Origin: Neelides folsomi
Lineage: Eukaryota; Arthropoda; Collembola; Neelipleona; Neelidae
Length of the DNA stretch: 64,000 nt
Reading direction: 5' to 3'
Assembly (NCBI GenBank): GCA_034687125.1
Contig: JAQGBZ010000084.1
Span: 62,001 to 126,000 of the forward strand
The notes beneath the pieces are model-generated. The model was not told the DNA's origin. It worked only from the letters and a program-made list of their open reading frames with translations, and ran no database searches. Below are positions 8,446 to 56,051 of this stretch, in pieces; the first letter of the stretch is position 1, and every line of letters begins with the position of its first letter. A program made the position numbers and the translations under genes.

Positions 8446-8950
8446 TTACATAACCTGATAGGGGAAACAGTGAACGTTAACAACGTTAAGGGTGACGACG
8501 CCGGCGAAAATTTTCTTTTGAGACCATTTTGAAGATTTTAGTTGTGCCAAAATAGCCGCTGTCACACGCACAAGAGTGTTAAATCTATTCTTGAGCAGTG
8601 TCCAGCAGCTTTTATGGGCAACAGAAGTCGGAATGGTCGGAGTGTTGAAATTGTAGGGGCGAAGGGAGAAAGAACCGAATGTGCCAATTCCCGAAAGGGT
8701 GGGGGTGAAAGAAAGAAAGGGATGAGAACAAGGGTTTTTCAATTCATTTCCATCATCACACTCCTTCTTATTTGGGAATAATTTGAATTGTGCGAAGGAA
8801 GGAATGACTTACGTGAAGATCTTATCAATTTACAATATTGGGAGAGGGAGGGAACGACAACGAGGTCGGAGGAGAAATGTTGGGCAAACGAGTGGAGGGA
8901 AGGGCTTTTAAATAAAGAGAGAAGCCAGATCAACTTACCTTCTCATTTCA
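8446..8950. other. GC-richer island, function unknown
   Basis: Base composition rises compared with flanks and open frames appear on both strands (98 codons on the minus strand at 8446-8742, 79 on the plus at 8542-8781). None resembles a known protein, and no splice-linked partner is obvious. A candidate regulatory island. Confidence 0.3.
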
Positions 8951-27902: not shown

Positions 27903-37751
<9,849 letters not shown>

Positions 37752-52946: not shown

Positions 52947-54512
52947 TTATTTGGCTCTTAATAAATCAGTAATCCAGGGATGTTTGAGAATTTTGTCCAG
53001 AGGAAGTCTCAATGGTGGTTCCTCCTTAAGTATCTGTAATTTATAAATAAATAATGTAATAATTAAATCACCTAAAAATTGAAATAATTGTAGGTACTAT
53101 TATATAATTTATACCATTGTTCACTAAATTCTGCAAATATAGTTTTCTATATAGGTATGTACCTTTGCAATGAGGTCTTTGGCTTGATCGCTGACAGTTC
53201 CTGGGATCGAGTAATTGATTTCCTTGATTTTCGCATATGTTTCATCAAATGTCTCCGTAAGAAATGGAGGAATTCCGACAAGAAATTCGTACATTAAAAC
53301 GCCTAAACTCCAAATATCGGCTGTTTCGTCGTATTTTTTCCCCATCACCATTTCTGGAGGAAGATCTACATTCAAGATTATAAAGTTACAAACACTATAT
53401 ACCTATAGTATACACAATATAAATATTAAATACTAATATTTCTCATGAGTTCCAATTTTTAAAAGTGATATGAAAATCAGTATCATACAGTCAAGGGTTC
53501 CGCACATAGTCTCACATCTATAAAAATTAAAACCTCTATTTAGAATAACAATAACTGTTTTTTTACATTAACAATTAGCATACTTTGATGATGGAGTGTG
53601 AACTGCCCATCCAAAATCGGCAATTTTAACTTCTCCTCTTGATCCAATTAGAAGATTCTCGGGTTTGATGTCTCGATGAAGAACATTCCTTTGATGGCAA
53701 TAAATGAGAGCAGCAGCTATTTGTTCGACGTATCTTGCAGCCCTAGAATTACGTATTTAAGAATCATATTGATTGATTAAATACTCAAATAATCACACGA
53801 AAAAAAAATTTAGTTATATGAAATGCATTACGTTTTTTCGTCAAAGCACTTCATTGGGAGCGATTGGAGCATTTTGTATAATTCTCCTCCAGGTGCGTAT
53901 TCGAGAATTAAGTAAACTTTTGTTTCATCGTGGAAATAACCAAACATTGGAAGAATATTCGGATGCCTCAGATGAGTCTGAATTTCTATCTCACGGCGTA
54001 ACTGATGTTCAACATTTGCCCTCTTGAGTTCCTTTTTTAAAAGGACTTTCAATGCTATAACGAATTTTGATTTCTTTTCCCTGGCTAAATACACATTTCC
54101 AAATTTCCCTAATCGTTTTCCAATATCGAAATCACACAAGGTCCATCTAAAGATTAATAATTCTAATATACAATTAATTTTAATATAATATATATAATCC
54201 AATATACAATTTTGTAATTTAATATTATTTACAATTTTTTCTTAATTTCTTTAAATTCAAAATATACATAGTTTACCTGACTTTTGATTGACCCGATGGT
54301 CCAGCTTCACCTTTTACATCCGATGAGGCCGCTCCAGGTAAATCGTTGTTGTTGATTTCTGAGGCGGCCGCTGCATTACAAAATGAGGGGCCTCCCAACG
54401 CAGGTAATTTACTAGAAGAGTGGGAATTTGAGGCAACCAAGCCTTTTTCCAATTTTGCCCTTTTCCGTTGTGGTTGTGCACCAAGACATTTTTCGTAATT
54501 TTTAATTGGCAT
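52947..54512 (-). CDS. Aurora-family serine/threonine kinase, divergent, 342 aa
   Basis: Mitotic kinase family. Exons on the minus strand: 54277-54512, 53832-54146, 53584-53742, 53489-53517 (29 nt), 53163-53365 and 52947-53033; every junction keeps frame. Residues 1-79 are a low-complexity head; the kinase domain runs from about 84 to 335. Present: catalytic K112 (IALKVL), H206-R-D208-IKPEN, D226-F-G-WAVH, the Aurora hallmark TMCGTLDYLPPEM (240-252) and [17 protein letters not shown]. Two oddities: the glycine loop reads LGKFGNVY (91-98), two residues short of the family's LGKGKFGNVY, so GxGxxG is lost; and the activation loop reads SSKCET240M, lacking the two arginines before the phosphorylated Thr. 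Length matches Aurora B-type kinases. It faces the BTB gene tail to tail. It may be a fast-evolving paralogue with reduced or altered activity. Confidence 0.92.
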
Positions 54513-56051
54513 TGTTTTAGATTTATAAAATTCAAAAAGAAGTTATTTACTTAGTATGTTATTAACAAGTTTTAACTATCCCTTTGCTGTTCCTTCTACC
54601 TCTAAAGGATCTAAAACTGAAAAATTTCTTTAAAATTTTAAACCGTGTGTAATTCACTCAATGAAAATGAAATTTGACCCGTTGACTGTCAATATGCAAG
54701 TGTTGTATTAGGTTAACCAACTGAAAGAAAGAAATAGACTTGTAAACAAATGATGAAATAATTACAATTGGCCAGGACAGTAAATCAGACATGCAAATTT
54801 TAGCTGGTTTGGGGGCAATGGATCTTAATACCACAAATGGGAATCTTACAAGTTGAGTGAAGATCGGAACCTTTTAGTTTCGTAAATGAAGTGAGGAGAG
54901 CAAATGACAACAAACAAAATTCCAACAAAAACAAAGAGCGGGACTTTATTAGGGGCATAGGCCCTTTGCCTCAGAAGAGGATTCCGAATTGTGTGTTGAA
55001 CATTACAAGCTCCTTTGACATATTTAGGAGTTTTAACTTTACAACATAGAATAATAGAATTATTCTAAAAAGATATTATTTAATCTCAACACTTTGTTTA
55101 ATACCGGTGACAGGTAAAAATAAAACTCTAAATACATAGTGCTCTTAAGGGATTAATACATATTTAAACAAATAATTGGTTTTCAAACACTTTTTGATCC
55201 AAGGATTTACAAATTGAACTATTGCTTTAAAGTTAATTTTAATAATTACTTATAAGTTTAAAAAAAGTATCAGTATGTTATATAAGTGTACCATTTATGG
55301 AAGTTATTGTATACATATAATATTATACGTACAATTTAAACATTTATGTTTATTAATATTAGTATGGTACATATAATAGAGTATATGTTGGCATTTACTT
55401 ATTTACTATATATTATAAGTAATATGGGTATATGAACAAAAATGTACAATTATTTATCCATTATCTATACCTATAGTATTCTATATTTCTTATCAATTTA
55501 CATTATGGGATTTTATAACTTGATTTTATATATATATATGAGACTAATTTTTATTACCGAAAGACTCATTTTTAAAACATATATTCTTTTATCAATTAAT
55601 TAGCTTTTTATTTCTTTAATTCTTTCAATCAATATTATCGCTTATAATATTAATAAATTGATAAATTATTATGAAAATTCTTAAAATTGCCATTTAAAGC
55701 AAACTTGAACAAAACTTGAATGCATTTCTGTCTACATACTTTTATTTATTTCTAAATATTACATGATATTTAATTAATATTTATCAACTTTTAAAAATCA
55801 CAACTAAAATGCACTTCATGCTTTTAAAGTATTGGTTATAAAGCTATTCTATTTATAAATGTATATCGTAACATGTTTTATTATGTAGATATATATAACT
55901 TTAGTTTGACTAATATTTATTGCAGAAAGATGGGAGATCGCCGAGGTAAAGAATAATTTGAATCGTCGTAATACATAATCGTCATATAATCGGAGGACGT
56001 CGTTCATATCTCGAATAAAAGGATCTTATTAGACAGAATTGAAGTCATCTC
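54513..56051. other. AT-rich spacer between Aurora and Phox2 genes
   Basis: It holds the promoter side of the Aurora gene and the 3' side of the homeobox gene. The patch at 54770-55000 is slightly GC-richer. No gene seen. Confidence 0.5.

Follow-up and report, generated by a model that had tools for sequence, protein, structure and literature searches.

The minus strand of the window, which is the whole 64,000-nucleotide stretch of Neelides folsomi DNA that was analyzed, carries an Aurora kinase gene at 52947-54512. A corrected splice model gives this gene six exons, GT-AG boundaries at all five introns, and 1029 coding bases including the stop, which translate as an intact frame of 342 amino acids. 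Inactivation through stops, frameshifts, or broken splice sites was considered and rejected, none being present in the frame or at the five introns. To this extent the sequence-only reading, which had described six exons with intact splice sites around an altered glycine loop, was accurate; the interval it singled out, 54070-54146, corresponds to the 5' portion of exon 2. The gene and the block upstream of it are arranged as follows.

54621..54676, minus strand: upstream block; local score of 50 against the upstream region of the paralogue on C137, compared with a maximum of 34 in 500 shuffles
54277..54512, minus strand: exon 1; ATG at 54512, variable N-terminal tail, donor GTAAAC
53832..54146, minus strand: exon 2; N-lobe with the shortened glycine loop, catalytic Lys (K162 equivalent), alpha-C Glu (E181), and hinge
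54099..54112, minus strand: shortened glycine loop (LGKFG), within exon 2; minus strand TTAGGGAAATTTGG, six bases shorter than in the paralogue, the exact junction being ambiguous within the repeat
53584..53742, minus strand: exon 3; HRDIKPEN catalytic loop and DFGW; Ser278 equivalent is Ala
53489..53517, minus strand: exon 4; activation segment; Arg286 equivalent is Cys, Thr288 equivalent kept
53163..53365, minus strand: exon 5; PPE motif and C-lobe
52947..53033, minus strand: exon 6; end of the kinase domain and stop codon

An activation-segment Lys straddles the junction between exons 3 and 4.

Membership of the Aurora family is indicated by comparison with known structures. The best 60 of 2,781 PDB matches are Aurora A, Aurora-related kinase 1, or serine/threonine kinase 6—the last being another name for Aurora A—and the best of them has an E-value of 1.1e-111. 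The activation segment also fits the Aurora pattern xTxCGTLDYLPPEM. A search of the genome for a second Aurora gene with a normal loop had been proposed from the sequence, and a six-frame search with the kinase domain of the window copy found two, one close (on C137) and one more distant (on C5). The C137 paralogue encodes 314 residues with the loop PLGKGKFGNVY, and its kinase domain is 82% identical to that of the window copy (217/264). Its five introns lie at the same positions, introns are GT-AG in both genes, and exons 3-6 are equal in length in the two (159, 29, 203, and 87 bases). Against the human Aurora A row, the window copy is identical at 160/257 positions and C137 at 174/259. The Pfam protein-kinase profile scores them at 235.5 and 240.1 bits, respectively, with the match starting at profile position 10, inside the loop, in the window copy versus position 3 in C137.

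The C5 Aurora (L014, C5:66995-68500) was recovered in pieces that are each 46-54% identical to the window copy, and its loop reads PLGEGKFGHVY. Outside the Auroras, the best-scoring match is a kinase domain on C7 with 39% identity; the rest score lower, although some short ones are more identical. Aurora A is the best match for the window copy, yet it is the best match for the C5 Aurora as well. The RRKT activation segment of the C5 gene hints at Aurora B; this gene combines RRKTLCGT and GEGKFG, but has Gly at position 198, where Aurora B has Asn. Aurora sequences are reported to resist phylogenetic analysis (PMC3718339).

The glycine loop reads RLGKFGNVY in the window copy versus PLGKGKFGNVY in Aurora A, and alignments to PDB entries show a gap of two residues precisely at the loop, in agreement with the original description of an Aurora kinase whose loop is two residues short. 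The loss had been put at exactly six bases, and so it proves against the close paralogue in the same genome: TTAGGGAAATTTGG (plus-strand 54099-54112) versus TTAGGCAAAGGGAAATTTGG in C137. In codons, TTA GGC AAA GGG AAA TTT GG in C137 corresponds to TTA GGG AAA TTT GG in the window copy; what is missing is one of the two copies in an imperfect direct repeat of six bases, GGCAAA/GGGAAA. Because one of these two repeats is gone, the loss probably arose by replication slippage. The loop pattern G-x-G-K-F-G is thereby absent from the window copy, which retains G-K-F-G only, and is full in C137 (GKGKFG) and C5 (GEGKFG). A separate three-base difference between window copy and C137, amounting to one Lys, lies at the exon-2 acceptor. 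When the assembly was searched at the DNA level with 201 bases of exon 2, two places only were matched, the window copy and C137 (84%), so there is no second haplotype to compare. An AlphaFold2 model of exon 2 alone had a mean pLDDT of 53 and was uninformative on the loop.

Other kinases of the same genome provide a base rate for loop length. Of 158 protein-kinase matches, 32 stretches were sampled, and the glycine loop was readable in 17/20 and 3/12 of them; with C137 and C5 added, normal loop length was found in 22/22 readable kinases, in a sample that favors normal loops because 17 of the 32 stretches were selected for a profile match that starts within the first five positions. Where the translated part holds no loop (12 stretches), the loop probably sits in another exon. 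Two of the 17, L026 and L027, have lost glycines while keeping a normal loop length. These are adjoining kinase frames (C90:198291-199058 and 191798-192562), each open across almost the entire kinase profile, and have the degraded loops IRDGKFARI and LSVGSFSKI; they are possible tandem pseudokinases.

How the second copy came about can be read from its surroundings. The window and 29.5 kb of C137 (some 13-14 kb to each side of the gene) were compared by DNA and by translated open frames, and at an E-value of 1e-4 only the Aurora gene matched. With no other match between the loci, the event appears to have been a DNA-level duplication of this one gene. As the Aurora gene alone is shared, duplication in tandem or as part of a large block is unlikely, and a processed retrocopy is ruled out by the presence of all five introns at the paralogue's positions. 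The upstream block at 54621-54676 is identical to the C137 upstream region at 48/55 ungapped columns and is probably a proximal promoter or 5' UTR copied along with the gene; because it aligns with C137, the duplication would have included that element. The idea that this block is better kept than the introns was set aside (388/473 ungapped columns identical in the introns, with many gaps in both).

Duplication among Auroras has precedents. The pea aphid has a lineage-specific Aurora duplication, and Nasonia and Aedes have three Aurora genes (PMC2826372), while independent duplications are described in several branches (PMC3718339). The arthropod duplicates have an extra Aurora gene in common with the present case; the excerpt of that source gives copy number only and no loop change (PMC2826372). 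As Aurora duplications are already known, the duplication here is of a known kind and the loop change is the new part. Among the titles and abstract openings by which the literature was judged, no Aurora with a shortened glycine loop is described.

Beyond the loop, alignment on human Aurora A numbering upholds the claim of a retained catalytic Lys, HRD, and DFG. The window copy retains the equivalents of K162, R180, E181, R255, D256, K258, N261, D274, F275, G276, W277, T288, and E299, and likewise those of Y199 and H201; the pseudokinase signature (loss of the VAIK Lys, the HRD Asp, or the DFG Asp) is absent, all three being present. Its likeness to Aurora A thus includes R180, Y199, H201, R255, W277, and T288, and its difference from Aurora A includes the two-residue deficit together with a series of replacements at positions where C137 is vertebrate-like: P138R, I158V, F165L, K171R, R195P, R205K, I237V, L240I, L270V, S278A, A281T, R286C, D287E, H306Y, K326I, R357K, R362K, and S369P. 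The Arg286 change goes beyond what the sequence-only reading had noticed. In Aurora A, R286, R180, and R255 surround the phosphate of pT288 (PMC5849412), and in a T288V background R286A still binds TPX2 and responds more weakly to phospho-Bora (PMC7997955). P138, L139, K143, and G145 are listed among Aurora-specific loop residues, and L139, K141, G142, K143, F144, and G145 among those that move on loop folding (PMC4259475). The predicted protein is altered in both nucleotide-side and activation-loop-side elements. The Pfam families of two activators, BORA_N and TPX2, had no match in the genome, and no control genome matched either.

Selection on the pair was estimated over 264 codons, where the window copy and C137 differ with dN 0.101, dS 0.579, and omega 0.175 (bootstrap 0.117-0.254). 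Omega in four 66-codon blocks is 0.10, 0.16, 0.16, and 0.30, and the loop lies in the first and lowest of these. A constrained pair with a normal-loop relative on C137 bears out the earlier view that the gene is a paralogue, not a random pseudogene. At 259 positions with a human residue, 46 differ between the copies: 2 constitute the deletion, 18 are replacements derived on the window-copy side and 5 on that of C137, and 21 are unpolarised. The count of 18 versus 5 polarised replacements (p=0.011) omits those 21, and without position 287, which rests on a possibly engineered PDB row, it becomes 17 versus 5 (p=0.017). A branch model in which synonymous change is assumed to be the same along the two branches, and in which vertebrate Aurora A supplies the ancestral information, gives an omega of 0.258 for the window copy versus 0.075 for C137; under this synonymous clock, equality is rejected (p=0.005), as is omega=1 for the window copy (p=1.3e-9). 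A codon model with the saturated C5 gene as outgroup failed to tell the two branches apart (p=0.46 for equal omega and p=0.53 for a neutral window copy), so the branch omegas rest on the assumed clock and a distant vertebrate outgroup. The window copy thus evolves faster and yet, on these estimates, appears to be under constraint. The N-terminal tail (window 54277-54512) exceeds that of C137 by about 30 residues and diverges more between the two (omega 0.52 over 46 aligned codons).

Altered glycine loops in otherwise folded kinases are known from the pseudokinases ILK, JAK JH2, MLKL, and BSK8 (PMC4718504), and in this the window copy resembles them. Their loops carry substitutions, are degraded, or are enlarged, the HRD or DFG being changed as well in several, and that of BSK8, being enlarged, departs in the opposite direction (PMC4718504); unlike them, the window copy has a shortened loop with the catalytic Lys, HRD, and DFG intact. 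The same source states that mutation of the glycine loop lowers ATP affinity and affects activity in PKA, that activity seems to have been predicted best by an intact loop combined with the VAIK motif, and that nucleotide binding is not reliably predictable from sequence (PMC4718504).

These findings suggest that the window copy is a lineage-specific, intron-keeping duplicate of Aurora A with low or conditional activity, which would dock partners and modulate the normal copy; our confidence in this reading is evenly balanced. Following duplication, the C137 copy would have stayed nearer the ancestral sequence, and the window copy would have lost one imperfect six-base repeat by slippage and then changed faster, its reading frame, splice sites, and catalytic residues meanwhile remaining under purifying selection. 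The shorter beta1-beta2 hairpin may still close, the two-residue loss keeping the strand register, such that L139 and V147 would still cover the adenine and the loop tip would no longer clamp the phosphates. Without Arg286, the contact to phospho-Thr288 would be weaker too. Such a protein might serve mainly as a competitor, scaffold, or modulator of normal Aurora A, with partner docking retained. Of the initial proposal that a paralogue had turned into a weak kinase, scaffold, or regulator, the paralogy stands, and the altered role is plausible in view of the short loop, R286C, and faster change. The intactness of the other catalytic residues checked, which would be unusual in a long-standing pseudokinase, counts against a weak kinase, and is as compatible with a still-active enzyme as with a recent deletion.

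A still-active enzyme would be a near-normal second Aurora A, in which the backbone of the Gly-Lys-Phe-Gly turn suffices and the constraint reflects catalysis. Several observations lean this way: the K162, E181, D256, K258, N261, D274, and T288 equivalents are kept, the lowest omega falls in the first 66 aligned codons that contain the loop, and the Pfam score stands at 235.5 bits beside 240.1 for C137. However, the Pfam match begins only inside the loop, Arg286 is lost as well, and loop length is kept in every one of the 22 other readable kinases, albeit in a biased sample; we judge such an enzyme unlikely. A recent deletion raises the prospect of a recently dead gene, long constrained and then subject to deletion and drift, or of a loss allele in the sequenced animal. 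For this, a model in which the last 20% of the window branch is neutral is no worse in fit than one of relaxed selection (log likelihoods of -1123.12 and -1123.15), and a very recent loss would leave no other trace. Yet, to account for the excess replacements, the neutral phase needs about 61 coding substitutions (about 19 if the fit may fall two log-likelihood units short of the best), and in simulations the share of genes free of a premature stop is 3.9% after 60 substitutions and 32% after 20. Adding one frameshift per ten substitutions leaves about 0.01% and 4.3% intact, respectively. With the frame and five introns whole, we regard recent death or a loss allele as rather doubtful.

The remaining explanation, an assembly or consensus error at the near-repeat GGCAAA/GGGAAA, appears very improbable. 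The lost bases make up one copy in an imperfect direct repeat, where assembly can slip, but the loss is in frame, nearby changes such as P138R set the site clearly apart from the paralogue, and no conflicting copy was found in the assembly.

The reading of the window copy as a low-activity or conditional Aurora A duplicate can be drawn more sharply, and only tentatively, toward either of two outcomes: a selection-kept Aurora A paralogue whose short loop and weakened phospho-T-loop pocket have made it a docking modulator, or, should it prove active, the first Aurora to catalyze with a GKFG loop. To our knowledge, no Aurora of the latter kind has been found so far. In either event the locus amounts to a natural experiment, in which the catalytic residues are kept, the phosphate-clamping loop is cut, and an unaltered sister gene serves as an in-genome control. 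Measuring both copies would establish what length of glycine loop a kinase needs, and whether Aurora duplicates can become regulators.

Elsewhere in the window, positions 8530-8625 on the minus strand hold a mir-210 microRNA precursor (59.5 bits versus a gathering score of 50), and a frame at 35877-36599 on the plus strand has C2H2 zinc-finger matches and resembles ovo/shavenbaby. The assembly also contains a mitochondrial contig, C742 (L019, L020), of 15,157 bases and 69% A+T; COX1 is the only gene on it confirmed by a family model, and the gene order, as read from tRNAs and long frames, is of pancrustacean type.
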